Assembly: GCF_024978135.1 (NCBI RefSeq) | Contig: NZ_JANTEZ010000006.1 | Span: 124,001 to 188,000 of the forward strand | Length of the DNA: 64,000 bases | Reading direction: 5' to 3' | Source: Herbiconiux gentiana | GTDB taxonomy: Bacteria; Actinomycetota; Actinomycetes; Actinomycetales; Microbacteriaceae | Shown here: one piece after another, positions 32,861 to 60,325 of the stretch | How positions within the stretch are numbered: the stretch's first letter is position 1 | Layout: each line of letters starts with the position of its first letter | Translations under genes and position numbers: made by a program | The notes under the pieces: model-generated | The model's input: only the letters and a program-made list of their open reading frames with translations | Told to the model about the DNA's origin: nothing | The model's database searches: none

Positions 32861-33556
32861 TCAGAACAGGCGGGAGTCGGCGTCGTCGAGGCCGCGCATC
32901 GCGTCGTAGTCGAGCGTGACGCAGCGGATGCCGCGGTCGAGCGCCAGCGTGCGCGCCTGCGGCTTGATCTCCTGCGCGGCGAAGACGCCCTGCACGGGGG
33001 CGAGGTGCGGGTCGCGGTTCATCAGCTCGAGGTAGCGGGTGAGCTGCTCGACGCCGTCGATGTCGCCGCGGCGCTTGATCTCGACGGCGACGGATGCCCC
33101 GGCCGAGTCGCGGGCCAGGATGTCGACGGGGCCGATCGCGGTCATGTACTCGCGACGCACGAGGGTGTGGCCGTCGCCGAGCAGCTCGATCTGCTCGGCG
33201 AGGAGCTTCTGCAGGTGCGCCTCGACGCCGTCCTTCACGAGGCCGGGGTCGATGCCGAGCTCGTGCGCCGAGTCGTGCTCGACGTCGTAGAGGGAGACCA
33301 CGAGCACGTCGTCGGTCTTCTTCTGCGTCACCTTCCAGAGCTCGGTGATGCCCGCCTCGGCCTGGTCGGCGTCGGGCTCCTGCACGGTGATGGTGCAGGG
33401 CGGGCTCATCCAGTTCAGGGGCTTGTAGCTGCCGCCGTCGGAGTGCACCAGGATGCTGCCGTCGCTCTTCAGCATCAGCAGCCGTTTCGCGAGCGGCAGG
33501 TGGGCGCTGAGGCGGCCGGCGTAGTCGACGGAACAGGTGGCAATGACGAGACGCAC
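32861..33556 (-). CDS. nucS: Mismatch-specific endonuclease NucS (EndoMS)
   Basis: 231 aa nuclease that replaces MutS/MutL mismatch repair in most Actinobacteria by double-strand cleavage at G-T, G-G and T-T mismatches. It begins [20 protein letters not shown] (dimerisation/DNA-binding domain). The RecB-like catalytic domain carries D145 in GPVDIL, and E159 and K161 in VAVEIKRR. The C-terminal DADSRLF occupies the position where family members bind the sliding clamp. GTG 33556 with TACGCT 6 nt upstream suggests leaderless mRNA. Normal length, all catalytic residues present. Confidence 0.96.
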
Positions 33557-55367: not shown

Positions 55368-56348
55368 GTGAACAGGAAGCTTCGGGTCGCCACACGGGGA
55401 AGCGCACTCGCGCGCGCCCAGACGGGGCACGTCGTCGCCGCCCTCGTCGAGGCCACCGGCGTCGAGGTGGAGGCGGTGATCATCACCTCGGAGGGGGACC
55501 GCTCGAAGGAATCGCTCGCGTCGCTGGGCGGCACCGGCGTCTTCGCCAGCGCCCTGCGGGAAGCGCTCGTCGCCGGTGACTGCGACCTGATCGTGCACTC
55601 CTTGAAAGACCTCCCGACCGCCCGCTACGAGGGCCTCGTCATCGGCGCGGTGCCGGTGCGCGAAGACCCGCGCGACGTGCTCTGCGCGCGCGACGGACTG
55701 ACCCTCGAGGAGCTGCCGGAGGGTGCCCGCGTCGGCACCGGGTCACCCCGACGGGTGGCGCAGCTGCTCGCCCTGCGGCCCGATCTCACGGTGGTCGACA
55801 TCCGGGGCAACGTCGACACGCGCCTCGGCCGCGTGCGGGCCGGTGACCTCGACGCGGTGGTGCTGGCGTCAGCGGGGCTCACCAGGCTCGATAGGCTAGA
55901 CGCAGCATCCGAGATCTTCGCCCTCGACCTCTGGCCGACGGCGCCGGGGCAGGGTGCCCTCGCGATCGAGACCCGAGAGGGAGACAGCATTCCCGAGTTG
56001 CTCAGCATCGAACACCCGCCGACGCGCACCGCGGTGCTCGCCGAGCGCTCGGTGCTGGCCGCGCTCGAGGCCGGCTGCGCCGCCCCGATCGGAGCCACGG
56101 CCACCGTCTCGGGCGACGAGCTGACCCTCTCGGCCACCGTCTACCAGGCCGACGGGGCCGTCGAGCTGGGCTGCGAGCGATCGGCCCTGCTGCTCGGCGA
56201 CGACATCCACGTGGCGTCGCTGCTCGGCGAGGCCGTGGCGCGTCAGCTGCTCGACGACGGCGCGGCCGAGCTCGCGCCGGTAGGCCCGTCGGCCGACGGC
56301 GGAGCCGACCCCACCACCTCCGCACGCTGGCCGGGCGGCACCGAATGA
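55368..56348 (+). CDS. hemC: Hydroxymethylbilane synthase (porphobilinogen deaminase)
   Basis: 326 aa. Polymerises four porphobilinogen molecules. N-terminal RKLRVATRGSALARAQTGHV, the central HSLKDLPT catalytic loop, substrate-binding ARVGTGSPRRVAQL, and the cofactor-bearing cysteine in GCAAPIGATA near residue 240. GTG 55368 with AGAGGAA upstream. Overlaps hemD by 4 bp. Confidence 0.97.
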   Translation: MNRKLRVATRGSALARAQTGHVVAALVEATGVEVEAVIITSEGDRSKESLASLGGTGVFASALREALVAGDCDLIVHSLKDLPTARYEGLVIGAVPVREDPRDVLCARDGLTLEELPEGARVGTGSPRRVAQLLALRPDLTVVDIRGNVDTRLGRVRAGDLDAVVLASAGLTRLDRLDAASEIFALDLWPTAPGQGALAIETREGDSIPELLSIEHPPTRTAVLAERSVLAALEAGCAAPIGATATVSGDELTLSATVYQADGAVELGCERSALLLGDDIHVASLLGEAVARQLLDDGAAELAPVGPSADGGADPTTSARWPGGTE

Positions 56349-57136
56349 CGGCCTGGGCGCAGCGCCCGCTCGGCGGCTGGCGCATCCTCGTCCCGCGCGG
56401 AGGCCCGTGGGGTCACGGTGTCGCCGCTGACCTGCGGGCCGTCGGCGCGAAGCCGATCGTCGCGCCCATGATCAACTTCGCCCCCACCGAAGACGACGAG
56501 ACGCTGCAGCAGGCGCTGCGGGCCCTCGCCGCCGGTCGGTTCGACTGGCTCACCATGACGAGCGCCACCACGGTCGACGTGCTCACCGCGCATCAGGCCG
56601 TGGTTCCGCCCGAGACGCACATCGCCGCTGTGGGCGAGACCACGGCGGCCGCGCTGACGGCGGCCGGCTACAAGGTCGACCTGGTGCCGCCGGAGGACAA
56701 CTCGGCCGCCGGCCTGCTGCGTGAGCTCAAGCGCTTCGAGCAGTTCGGGCCCGAACTGAAGGTGCTGACCCTGCGCAGCGACATCGCCAAGCCCGTGCTC
56801 ACCGAGGGGCTGATCGCGCGGGGTCACACGGTGGAGTCCGTGGTGGCGTACCGCACGGTCGGTGTGGCCGTCGATCCGCAGATCCGCACCGACGTCGCCG
56901 AGGGGTCGATCGACGCGATCTTCGTGACCTCGGGGTCGGTGGCGGAGCAGGTGCAGCAGCAGCTCGGGCCGATCCCGTCGTCGACGCTCGTGGCGGCCAT
57001 CGGCCCGCGCACGGCCGAAGACGCGCGGGCCTACGGCCTGCGCGTCGACGTGATCGCGAAGGGGCGCTCGGCCGAGTCGCTCATCAACGCGGTCATCGAG
57101 GTCGCGAAGCAGCGCGCCGACGCCGACGCCGACTGA
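56345..57136 (+). CDS. hemD: Uroporphyrinogen III synthase
   Basis: 263 aa. Closes and inverts ring D to form uroporphyrinogen III. Two HemD lobes: the N-terminal ILVPRGGPWGHGVAADLRAV and DWLTMTSATTVDVL, and the C-terminal IDAIFVTSGSVAEQVQQQL and VAAIGPRTAEDARAYGLRVD. It overlaps hemC by 4 bp. HemD is weakly conserved overall, but position after hemC fixes the call. A palindrome (57165-57214) sits downstream, before the converging AlkB-like gene. Confidence 0.95.
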   Translation: MTAWAQRPLGGWRILVPRGGPWGHGVAADLRAVGAKPIVAPMINFAPTEDDETLQQALRALAAGRFDWLTMTSATTVDVLTAHQAVVPPETHIAAVGETTAAALTAAGYKVDLVPPEDNSAAGLLRELKRFEQFGPELKVLTLRSDIAKPVLTEGLIARGHTVESVVAYRTVGVAVDPQIRTDVAEGSIDAIFVTSGSVAEQVQQQLGPIPSSTLVAAIGPRTAEDARAYGLRVDVIAKGRSAESLINAVIEVAKQRADADAD

Positions 57137-57230: not shown

Positions 57231-57878
57231 TCAGCGCGGCCAGTCGGGGCGGAACTGCACGCTGATGCGCGGGCCGACCGCCTGCTTCGTCTTGAGGATG
57301 GCGTGCTCGTGGGTGCGCTGGCAGCTGCCGCCCATGACGATGAGGTCGCCGTGCCCGACCGGGAAACGCAGCGTCTCACCCACCGCGCGGCCGTTCACCG
57401 GCTTCGGTCGCACCGACAGCGTGCGCGCGGCGCCCACCGAGAGGATCGCCACCATCGTGTCGCGGTCGATCGTGCGCCCGACGCGATCGCCGTGCCAGGC
57501 CACGCTGTCGTCGCCCGTGCGGTAGAAGCACAGCCCCGCCGTCTCGAACACCTGGCCCGGAGGGCGGCCGTAATGGTCGTTCAGCGCATCCTGTGCCCGG
57601 GTGAGCGCCAGATCGGGATAGACCGAGCCCACCCCGAAGCGCGACACCAGCCGCGGAACGTCGACCACCCGGTCGTACATCTCCCGCCGATCGGCCTGCC
57701 ACGGCACGTCGAGGGCGAGCCGCTCGAACAGCGCGTCGGAGTTCGTGACCCACCCCGGCCGCAGGTCGACCCAGGCCCCGTCGCCGAGCATCGTGCGCTC
57801 GACCGCGCCGCCCAGCGGCTCGAGCCCGGGGTCGGCGTCGAGGTCGTCGAAGAGCGAGGTCTGGAAGTCGATGTTCAT
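57231..57878 (-). CDS. AlkB-type alpha-ketoglutarate-dependent dioxygenase
   Basis: 215 aa Fe(II)/2-oxoglutarate dioxygenase of the AlkB family, which repairs alkylated nucleic acid by oxidative demethylation. Iron ligands H129 and D131 in AWHGDR and H192 in QRTHEHAI; 2-oxoglutarate arginines R204 and R210 in RISVQFRP. The first residues MNIDFQTSLFDD contain QTSLF (6-10), close to the QL(S/D)LF sliding-clamp motif. ATG 57878 with TAGGGT 6 nt upstream. A LexA-like box overlaps the promoter. It stands opposite to the haem genes around it. Confidence 0.92.
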   Translation of the reverse strand: MNIDFQTSLFDDLDADPGLEPLGGAVERTMLGDGAWVDLRPGWVTNSDALFERLALDVPWQADRREMYDRVVDVPRLVSRFGVGSVYPDLALTRAQDALNDHYGRPPGQVFETAGLCFYRTGDDSVAWHGDRVGRTIDRDTMVAILSVGAARTLSVRPKPVNGRAVGETLRFPVGHGDLIVMGGSCQRTHEHAILKTKQAVGPRISVQFRPDWPR

Positions 57879-57884
57879 GCCTCC

Positions 57885-57890
57885 ACCCTA
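57885..57890 (-). promoter_or_regulatory. -10 element of the AlkB-like gene (leaderless candidate)
   Basis: TAGGGT (minus strand), six nucleotides, then ATG 57878. GGAGG is present but only 1 nt from the ATG. Confidence 0.5.
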
Positions 57891-57897
57891 TCGACAT

Positions 57898-57913
57898 TCG
57901 AACATCTGTTCTA
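57898..57913. promoter_or_regulatory. LexA-type SOS box
   Basis: TCGAACATCTGTTCTA matches the actinobacterial LexA consensus TCGAAC-N4-GTTCGA at 11 of 12 fixed positions. It lies just upstream of the -10 of the AlkB-like gene and covers its -35 region (57908-57913), the right place for LexA repression. Confidence 0.7.
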
Positions 57914-57970
57914 GTCCCGCAGGACGCCCCGGCATCGCCCGCGCCCGGCATCGCCCCAGGCGCACCGATC

Positions 57971-57976
57971 TAAGCT
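57971..57976 (+). promoter_or_regulatory. -10 element of hemB (leaderless or very short leader)
   Basis: TAAGCT, seven nucleotides (GGAGGTC), then ATG 57984. The GGAGG could also serve as a ribosome site with short spacing, so leaderless status is uncertain. Confidence 0.4.
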
Positions 57977-57983
57977 GGAGGTC

Positions 57984-58979
57984 ATGACTTCCGGCTCCTT
58001 CCCCGAGATCCGACCGCGCCGGCTGCGCGGCACTCCGGCGCTGCGCCGCCTGGTCGCCGAGACCCGCATCGACCCCGCCCAGCTCGTGCTGCCGCTGTTC
58101 GTGCGCGACGACATCGACGCCCCCGTGCCGCTGAACTCCATGCCCGGCGTGCTGCAGCACACCTTCGAGAGTCTCCGCGGAGCAGTGACCGAAGCGGCCG
58201 AGGTCGGCCTCGGCGGTGTGATGCTCTTCGGTGTGCCCGCCGACGCCGACAAGGATGCGGTCGGCACCGCCGCCACCGACCCCGACGGCGTGCTCAACGC
58301 CGCCACACGCATCGTGGTCGAGGAGGCCGGCGACGCGCTCGTGGTGCAGACCGATCTCTGCCTCGACGAGTTCACCGACCACGGCCACTGCGGCGTGCTG
58401 GATGCCCGGGGAGCCGTCGACAACGACGCCACCCTCGTGCGCTACCGGGACATGGCCCTCGAGCAGGCCCGCGCGGGCAGCCACCTGCTCGGCCTCTCCG
58501 GAATGATGGACGGCCAGGTCGCGGCCGTGCGCGACGCGCTCGACGGCGAGGGCTTCCAGGACGTCGCGATCCTCGCCTACGCGGCGAAGTACGCTTCGGC
58601 GTTCTACGGCCCCTTCCGCGAGGCCGTCGGCTCGACGCTGCGCGGTGACCGCAAGAGCTACCAGCTCGATCCGGCGAACCGCCGCGAGGGCCTCCGCGAG
58701 GCCGTGCTCGACGTCGAGGAGGGCGCCGACATCGTCATGGTCAAGCCCGCCCTGAGCTACCTCGACCTGGTGGCCGACGTCTCCGCCGCGGTGCCCGTGC
58801 CGGTCTGGGCGTACCAGGTGTCGGGGGAGTACGCCATGATCGAGGCGGCGGCCGCCAACGGCTGGATCGACCGGGAGCGGGCGATCCTCGAGTCGCTCAC
58901 GAGCATCCGTCGAGCCGGCGCCGAGGCCGTGCTCACCTACTGGGCGGTCGAGGTCGCCCGAAGCCTGAAGGGCCTGTGA
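57984..58979 (+). CDS. hemB: Delta-aminolevulinic acid dehydratase (porphobilinogen synthase)
   Basis: 331 aa. Condenses two ALA into porphobilinogen. [20 protein letters not shown] at the start, [20 protein letters not shown], the [14 protein letters not shown] block and [15 protein letters not shown] with the two active-site lysines are present. Metal-site residues lie in [17 protein letters not shown]. It overlaps hemL by 1 bp. Expressed divergently from the AlkB-like gene. Confidence 0.97.
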
Positions 58980-60325
58980 TGACCAGCAACGCCACCGAGT
59001 TCGCCCGCGCCCAGCGCTCCATCCCGGGCGGCGTGAACTCCCCGGTGCGCGCCTTCCGCTCGGTCGGCGGCACCCCGCGCTTCATGGTGTCGGCGAAGGG
59101 CCCCTACATCACCGACTCCGAGGGCCGCGAGTACGTCGACCTGGTCTGCTCCTGGGGCCCCGCGGTGCTCGGGCACGCGCATCCCGAGGTCGTCAGGGCG
59201 GTTCAGGATGCGGCGGCCCGCGGTCTCTCGTTCGGAGCCACCACCCCGGCCGAGACCGACCTGGCCGAACTCGTGCGCGCCCGCGTCATCGCCGGTGGTG
59301 TCGCCCCGATCGAGAAGCTGCGGCTCGTCTCGACCGGAACCGAGGCGACCATGACCGCCATCCGCCTCGCCCGCGGGTTCACCGGCCGCGACGTGCTGAT
59401 CAAGTTCGCCGGCCACTACCACGGCCACTCCGACCCGTTGCTGGCCGAGGCCGGCTCCGGGCTCGCCACCCTCGCCCTGCCCGCCTCGGCCGGGGTGCCG
59501 GCCGCGACAGCCGCGCTCACCATCGTGCTGCCGTACAACGACCTCGATGCGGTGCGCGCGGCCTTCGCCGAGTTCGGCCAGCAGGTCGCCGCGATCATCG
59601 TCGAGGCGGCTCCCGCGAACATGGGCGTCGTTCCTCCCGCGCCGGGCTTCAACGCGGCGCTCGCCGACATCGCGCACGAGAACGGTGCGCTGCTGATCGT
59701 CGACGAGGTGCTCACGGGGTTCCGCGTCGGGGCCGCCGGCTGGTGGGGGCTCGAGAACTCCGCCGGGCCCGATGGAGCGGTCGCGCATCCGTACACCCCC
59801 GACCTCGTCACCTTCGGCAAGGTCGTCGGCGGCGGTATGCCGCTCGCGGCGCTCGGCGGGCGGGCCGACGTGATGGACCACCTCGCCCCGCTCGGCCCGG
59901 TCTACCAGGCCGGCACGCTCTCGGGGAACCCGATCGCGGTCGCCGCGGGTCTCACCACGCTGCGCCTGGCCGACGCGGCGGTCTACGAGACGCTCGACGC
60001 CGTCTCGACGACCATCTCCGACGCCGTCTCGGCCGCCTTCTCCGAGGCCGGGGTCGCGCACAGCCTGCAGCGGGCGGGCAGCCTGTTCAGCTTCACCTTC
60101 GGCTCCGACGTCGCCCCGCGCGACTACGCCGACGTGCAGCGTCAGGAGGGCTTCCGCTACGCGCCCTTCTTCCACAGCATGCTCGACGCGGGCGTCTCGC
60201 TGCCGCCGTCGGTCTACGAGGCCTGGTTCGTCTCGGCCGCGCACGACGACCGGGCGATCGGCCGCATCCTGGATGCCCTGCCCGCCGCCGCGCGGGCGGC
60301 CGCCGCTGCGACGCCGGCCGCCTGA
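58979..60325 (+). CDS. hemL: Glutamate-1-semialdehyde 2,1-aminomutase
   Basis: 448 aa PLP enzyme converting glutamate-1-semialdehyde to 5-aminolevulinate. [20 protein letters not shown] start, [32 protein letters not shown], and [20 protein letters not shown] with the PLP lysine. [18 protein letters not shown] completes the site. ATG 58979 overlaps the hemB stop by 1 bp (TGATG), better than GTG 58976. With hemA, this completes ALA synthesis. Confidence 0.97.

Follow-up and report, generated by a model that had tools for sequence, protein, structure and literature searches.

How does a bacterial AlkB enzyme find its substrate? AlkB is a textbook direct-reversal enzyme that works on single-stranded DNA, and how it locates rare lesions on exposed single strands is, to our knowledge, unsettled. 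The question is raised by a gene in a stretch of 64,000 nucleotides from the Herbiconiux gentiana genome (hereafter the window, by which we mean the whole stretch that was analysed). A sequence-only reading of the window had noticed that an alkB-type gene combines a LexA-type box over its -35 region, a -10 element spaced for a leaderless mRNA and, among its first residues, a peptide (QTSLF) close to the beta-clamp-binding consensus, and had interpreted the gene as coding for a DNA-damage-induced demethylase recruited to replication forks by DnaN. Our computational analysis confirms the observation itself and partly supports the interpretation. AlkB under LexA is ordinary for an actinobacterium and already known; a clamp-type tail that recurs throughout the phylum is not ordinary, and the N-terminal peptide is the new part.

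The gene occupies positions 57231-57878 on the minus strand and encodes, from an ATG start, a protein of 215 residues. Its identity as an AlkB-type 2OG-Fe(II) dioxygenase is borne out by a PF13532 match with an E-value of 3.4e-13 and 50.7 bits, against a curated cut-off of 31.2 (an NCBIfam search at 0.001 matched no family), and by a search of PDB sequences that returns human ALKBH3 first (E 5.4e-17) and ALKBH2 second. An AF2 model built on a 36-sequence alignment has a mean pLDDT of 84 and a pTM of 0.84, and it adopts the AlkB fold, with ALKBH3 again as the best solved match in a fold search (TM 0.72, E 1.6e-14, 28% identity). The catalytic residues named beforehand, H129, D131, H192, R204 and R210 (57249-57494, minus strand; placed by alignment and sequence reading), are all present as the HxD...H iron triad and the RxxxxxR motif, and none of the five varies across alignment A3 with its 36 rows; in AlkB enzymes, the first three are the Fe ligands and the two arginines lie on the 2OG side. 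At an E-value of 0.001 the protein is the only PF13532 match of its own genome, which also encodes LexA (PF01726). An Ada-type protein is encoded on a different contig, so alkB is not adjacent to ada, unlike in Escherichia coli. The gene product probably belongs to the AlkB-family demethylases that repair DNA by direct reversal, with a presumed lesion spectrum.

On the coding strand, the promoter reads in the order box TAGAACAGATGTTCGA, 7 nt, TAGGGT, 6 nt, ATG. The predicted LexA (SOS) box (57898-57913, minus strand) matches 11 of the 12 fixed letters of TCGAAC-N4-GTTCGA, and its first six letters, TAGAAC (57908-57913, minus strand), are the -35-like hexamer itself, at a spacing of 17 nt, as read from the sequence, from the -10 element TAGGGT (57885-57890, minus strand). 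Within the 3.85 Mb of the genome, six sites, the alkB box among them, lie no more than two mismatches from TCGAACATATGTTCGA; allowing three mismatches yields 14 sites, compared with five for the reversed control pattern. The transcript would be expected to start at 57878 or an adjacent nucleotide. A GGAGG is found 1 nt upstream of the ATG, which is too close to the start codon to work as a Shine-Dalgarno sequence; window alkB accordingly has a -10 element 6 nt from its start and no Shine-Dalgarno sequence at working distance, the leaderless-type arrangement that had been proposed for it.

Box and promoter layout recur in relatives, all counts of which are to be read with the proviso that related sequences are not independent trials. 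We compared 58 near relatives (set A, L001-L058; L001 is a Herbiconiux with 95% identity to the AlkB of the window's genome) and 115 mostly class-level relatives (set B, L089-L197 and L308-L313); at class level, 109 loci besides the window's own were hand- or rank-picked, and 30 genomes were added, from among at least 225 genomes with a match. A box with at least 10 of the 12 fixed letters lies upstream of alkB in 57 members of set A and 108 of set B, or 165 of 173 combined, compared with 27 of 5120 dinucleotide-shuffled upstream regions, and chance as the source of the box is ruled out by this control. In the more distant set C, which comprises 19 same-class loci (L230-L248) and 38 loci from other classes (L259-L296), such a box is present at 28 of 57. 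Of 166 relatives, 157 have the sequence TAnnnT at 5-8 nt upstream of the start codon that was chosen for them, versus 404 of 8300 dinucleotide shuffles, and GGAG, GAGG or AGGA occurs 5-14 nt upstream of the start in only four of the 166. These 166 loci are L001-L058 and L089-L197 minus L139, for which a wrong ORF had been chosen; they omit L079 and L088, which are the window's own gene, and their start codons were chosen by script, in the cases of L145 and perhaps L186 wrongly. Together, these counts show that the SOS-plus-leaderless layout is class-wide.

The surroundings of the gene tell us less. As described in the sequence-only reading, alkB runs antiparallel to its plus-strand neighbours (56345-57136, 57984-58979 and 58976-60325), three genes that we take, following that reading, to be haem genes, the one starting at 57984 presumably being hemB. 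Any of the three haem-type neighbours is found within flanks of up to 3 kb at only nine of the 58 near relatives (L001-L009), and the position therefore looks incidental; we have rejected the haem neighbourhood as meaningful context. The SOS box lies in the interval between the divergent alkB and presumed hemB genes (57898-57984), 70 nt from the hemB ATG, and where this order is retained, as it is in a few relatives, LexA could also touch presumed hemB.

Is LexA control of alkB a new wiring, as had been suggested by reference to E. coli, where AlkB is controlled by Ada? The contrast with E. coli is genuine, but the novelty is not, and we reject it in view of published work on two actinobacteria. 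In Streptomyces venezuelae, ChIP-seq identifies alkB (vnz_32390) as a target of LexA, and RNA-seq after mitomycin C gives a fold change of 11.02 for the gene (PMC9380542); in Mycobacterium tuberculosis, Rv1000c is a listed SOS-box gene whose protein is detected only after mitomycin C (PMC8151990). Two points count against the LexA part. The printed S. venezuelae alkB site, GGTTACGCTGGATC at -20, marked as SPR-validated (PMC9380542), does not correspond to the palindrome that class-level relatives (L118-L197) show some 35 nt upstream, and M. tuberculosis AlkB accumulates without RecA and PafBC too (PMC8151990). The printed site also contains TAnnnT (PMC9380542, Table 1). For window alkB, the predicted box would imply LexA binding and induction by damage.

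The candidate clamp-binding motif QTSLF comprises codons 6-10 (57849-57863, minus strand) and lies in an N-terminal tail, the Herbiconiux-type peptide of which, spanning Q6 and F10, reads MNIDFQTSLFDDLDA. An alignment of the first 15 residues across Microbacteriaceae had been named as a check; our wider comparison shows that the motif is conserved phylum-wide: scored as Q-x-[STNC]-[LIM]-[FLWMI], it is present in the tails of 216 of 230 actinobacterial relatives (sets A, B and C). Among near relatives it is found in 48 of 58, all ten misses being Frigoribacterium proteins in which T replaces Q; set B has it in 113 of 115 (misses QGALF in L308 and L309), and set C in 55 of 57, with one miss reading QPSLV (L242) and another cut by a contig end (L285). 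A fourth set of 26 diverged proteins scoring below 135 bits (set D) has the motif in six members and lacks it in 20. All four sets together comprise 256 loci, from which L079, L088, L198-L228 (repeats) and loci with a cut core match were omitted; of 50 genomes with a match in other classes, 47 were read. The ten Frigoribacterium AlkBs (L041-L048, L052 and L055) read TASLL, TASLF or TSSLL and have kept SOS boxes of 11-12 letters.

Neither chance nor the way in which relatives were collected appears to create this pattern. Motif matches number 211 in 6163 tail positions versus four in 40810 core positions. In the locus DNA that was analysed, the motif falls among the first 25 residues of 28 of 552 ORFs, every one of them an AlkB by eye; with no other protein among these N-terminal matches, we reject chance as the source. 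Ascertainment through the query peptide was considered too, and does not seem to be the source either: the exact peptide MNIDFQTS recurs only in L001 and L002 of the 58 near relatives, and 37 of the 38 other-class relatives, which were found only via the tail-less profile A2, have the motif, the one miss being the contig-end cut. (The genomes of the 19 same-class loci in set C were first matched by a tail-including profile and then re-searched with A2.) Over the 256 loci, box and motif occur together at 182 and are both absent at 22, with 40 having the motif only and 12 the box only, an association that is confounded by descent. Set C has the box at only 28 but the motif at 55 of its 57 loci; the two are therefore not strictly linked, and the tail is independent of SOS control.

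Which partner might such a tail have? Clamp-binding motifs take the form Q-phi-x-[L/M]-[F/L], besides a hexameric form (PMC11139829), with phi standing for L, I, V or A, so that Ala counts as aliphatic at position 2 (PMC13254535). The proposed closeness of QTSLF to QL(S/D)LF gains strength from the phylum-wide conservation of the motif and from exact forms in some actinobacterial and cyanobacterial AlkBs; in QTSLF itself, Q, L4 and F5 fit the consensus, but position 2 is Thr and thus not aliphatic. Judged strictly, with Ala allowed, 65 of the 230 actinobacterial tails conform and 165 fail, position 2 being mostly Ala, Gly, Pro, Thr or Ser; exchanging L2 for Ala is reported to weaken the peptide Ac-QLDLF about 40-fold (PMC11139829). 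A conserved D after the motif and a hydrophobic residue before it lie outside the clamp consensus. The C-terminus of NucS, [E/K]-[L/Y]-[T/R]-L-F, belongs to a region needed for binding to the clamp (DnaN) in Corynebacterium glutamicum (PMC8228993), and therefore T at position 3 and a residue other than Q at position 1 do occur in this phylum. In the excerpts consulted from the CC-licensed PMC literature, we found no report of beta-clamp binding by a bacterial AlkB, and the one mention of AlkB in the corresponding part of a clamp review is that of the human APIM motif (PMC11139829).

Outside Actinobacteria, we read nine cyanobacterial proteins, 17 others (16 plasmid-borne and one from a phage) and the E. 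coli protein, all picked by hand or by accession, several without an annotated start and one (L336) within an open frame only 159 residues long. Eight of the nine cyanobacterial plasmid AlkBs have a Q-type motif at the N-terminus. Four are exact, namely QLSLF (Synechocystis), QLSLNL (Nostoc and Calothrix) and QLNLF (Nostoc C057), and near forms are QMSLF (Calothrix and Nostoc HK-01), QLSLW (Planktothrix) and QLNIW (Picosynechococcus); the ninth, from Kovacikia, has no such Q-type motif. Two of these forms, QLSLW and QLNIW, end in Trp, which in the last motif position is reported to weaken binding (PMC11139829). The 17 others include three Q-type proteins, all from Burkholderiales plasmids (QNDLF, QQGLF and QQELF), 11 with only [D/S]LF and three with neither. 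Viral contigs gave no confirmed AlkB relative when searched with profile A3, and three relatives, without a Q-type motif near their likely starts, when searched with the Synechocystis protein.

A like peptide is found at the other end of an unrelated protein of the same genome. A radical-SAM photolyase-like protein (L076, G000:C10:20805-21971) ends in QPTLF, and its gene has a LexA box at G000:C10:21956-21971. We read the best 30 of the places from 49 genomes with a match (L357-L386), the genome's own copy included: a Q-type clamp-like motif closes 27 of these 30 proteins, 20 as scored by script and seven accepted by eye (QLRLY, QLRLI, QLSLI, QLTLI, QLALPGF, QLLLPGF and QLPLDL), two end in -LF without Q and one has nothing, while a box of at least 10 letters is present at 21 of the 30. 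C-termini among these copies also include QLTLL, QLSLL, QLELFA and QATLF. P and A at motif position 2 are seen in this family too, within the same phylum. A loose C-terminal pattern is matched by 24 of the 552 ORFs, namely by this protein in 16 cases and by eight others, four of which are near-identical. In S. venezuelae, a radical-SAM protein is likewise a LexA target with a fold change of 19.97 (PMC9380542). Judged by these sequences, it looks like a second SOS-induced clamp client.

Further proteins of the genome served as controls. The known types of clamp binder end or read as QPALW (DinB-like), RQLLVPWG (ImuB-like) and DSRLF (NucS), which indicates that clamp motifs are loose in this genome and is silent on binding by AlkB; no clear clamp motif was seen in the part of the DnaE loci that was read. 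The NucS ORF (PF01939) lies within the window itself, at 32867-33226, and its DSRLF is a Q-less clamp-type C-terminus. Elsewhere in the genome, a perfect LexA palindrome (L074, G000:C1:138889-138904) stands 10 nt before an ImuA'-like ORF and beside PF00817 and PF07733 matches, a locus that, named by eye and position, is probably the mutasome operon, and a one-mismatch box (L075, G000:C4:17789-17804) stands 10 nt before an ORF of 107 residues.

We favour the clamp as the partner because of the cyanobacterial motifs, the Burkholderiales and E. coli forms, the NucS C-terminus and the second LexA-box protein. On balance, it seems likely to us that AlkB is an SOS-induced demethylase tethered to the beta clamp by its N-terminal motif. 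A different partner, such as the RecA filament, SSB or a chaperone, might instead be docked by the peptide, with AlkB still being SOS-induced and brought to single-stranded DNA, and among the competing explanations this one survives best, unlikely as we consider it. It would suit an enzyme that works on single strands, as well as the flanking hydrophobic residue and D, which go past the clamp consensus; yet four of the nine cyanobacterial tails match the clamp consensus exactly, two of them in its hexameric form, the radical-SAM protein, an unrelated SOS protein, ends in a like peptide, and the pattern QxSLF is not known to us from any ligand of RecA or SSB. Also in favour of another partner, AlkB is listed among the E. 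coli SSB partners in a review (PMC11253446).

Alternatively, the tail may be no docking peptide at all but a structural element that packs onto the core or onto the DNA-binding lid, its conservation then arising from folding or catalysis. Residues 11-20 of the AF2 model, with a mean pLDDT of 87, hint that the stretch after the motif may pack on the core, and many AlkBs that lack the Q begin with [D/S]LF (11 of 17). Residues 1-10, however, have a mean pLDDT of only 58, and the distance between motif and core varies from 6 to 48 residues in sets A, B and C, which makes the motif part of an accessible and flexible segment. Of 15 PDB chain sequences of E. coli AlkB, 12 lack residues 1-11 and start at residue 12-14, beyond the MLDLF with which that protein begins. 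Moreover, in six genomes from which at least two copies were read, the motif is present in one copy and absent from its sister copy or copies with the same core (L231 versus L314 and L318, L230 versus L317, L232 versus L316, L234 versus L315, L269 versus L306, and L272 versus L307). Calculated from 229 tails, 218 of which were anchored on the motif, the column information amounts to 4.1 bits for Q, 2.0 for position 2, 4.0 for S, 4.1 for L, 3.3 for F/L and 3.2 for the D that follows, as opposed to 0.8-1.7 bits for linker columns. Conserved columns in a variable tail of changing length are more in keeping with a short linear motif used for docking than with part of the fold, and we regard the structural explanation as rather improbable. 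That only the LexA-controlled demethylase is real and the motif is inherited sequence without a present binding role, as the replaced Q in ten of ten Frigoribacterium proteins and the mostly suboptimal position 2 might suggest, is very hard to square with four motif columns of 3.3-4.1 bits across the phylum amid variable neighbours and with zero non-AlkB matches among 552 ORFs.

How might a clamp-tethered AlkB work? LexA bound over the -35 region would keep alkB off, and RecA-driven cleavage of LexA upon DNA damage would free the promoter, from which an mRNA most likely beginning at the ATG would be made. The flexible N-terminal tail would then dock AlkB onto DnaN through Q6-T-S-L-F10, and DnaN might hold the enzyme by replication forks or post-replicative gaps, where exposed single-stranded template carrying N1-methyladenine or N3-methylcytosine would be its substrate. 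Clamp binding, recruitment to forks, LexA binding, induction by damage and the lesion spectrum of the window AlkB are thus the predictions that this scheme makes.

If this is true, an N-terminal clamp motif would offer a simple answer to the problem of lesion finding by AlkB, and one that sits in the very stretch missing from most PDB chains of the E. coli protein. Docking to the clamp would then be a logic shared by the human and the bacterial enzymes. The actinobacterial SOS response would induce clamp-bound error-free repair beside the clamp-bound mutasome (ImuB/DnaE2), and competition between AlkB and the mutasome for the same clamp pocket would bear on the balance of repair and mutagenesis. 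From a wider perspective, and more tentatively than for the enzyme itself, clamp tethering may be an old shared trait of bacterial AlkBs that was kept in Actinobacteria and Cyanobacteria, partly eroded in Pseudomonadota (E. coli MLDLF) and acquired independently in human ALKBH2; the actinobacterial AlkB might then belong to a wider set of LexA-induced, clamp-tethered repair proteins including the SOS-box radical-SAM protein ending in Q[LPA][ST]L[FL].

Several known systems share parts of this design. S. venezuelae vnz_32390 and Rv1000c are actinobacterial AlkBs assigned to LexA control, with induction or detection following mitomycin C; a clamp motif or a leaderless start is not among the features described in the excerpted accounts, and the printed S. 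venezuelae LexA site differs from the palindrome at window alkB (PMC9380542, PMC8151990). E. coli AlkB (b2212) belongs to the same family, as its PF13532 match in the control genome shows, and begins with MLDLF, in which the initiator Met stands where the QLDLF consensus has its Q (L323 392-1042); it thus lacks the Q, shows 13% identity to the window model in the fold search and, unlike window alkB, is encoded directly downstream of ada. Human ALKBH3, the nearest solved structure by both sequence and fold at 28% identity, is not known to be under SOS control. Two proteins with a docking motif at the same end as that of AlkB are Hda, a regulator of replication initiation rather than a repair enzyme, and human ALKBH2, whose APIM motif is N-terminal. 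In Hda, a clamp motif lies in a disordered N-terminus, as we propose for AlkB (PMC11139829). ALKBH2 is itself an AlkB-family demethylase docked on PCNA by a short motif, which has the form [KR]-[FYW]-[LIVA]-[LIVA]-[KR] and addresses another clamp, so that the likeness would be convergent (PMC11139829, PMC7261172). Finally, actinobacterial NucS/EndoMS differs from AlkB in being an endonuclease, in having E or K at position 1 and in placing its motif at the C-terminus, but it shares with AlkB a role in repair and, at one end of the chain, a clamp-type motif, in its case xx[T/R]LF (PMC8228993).
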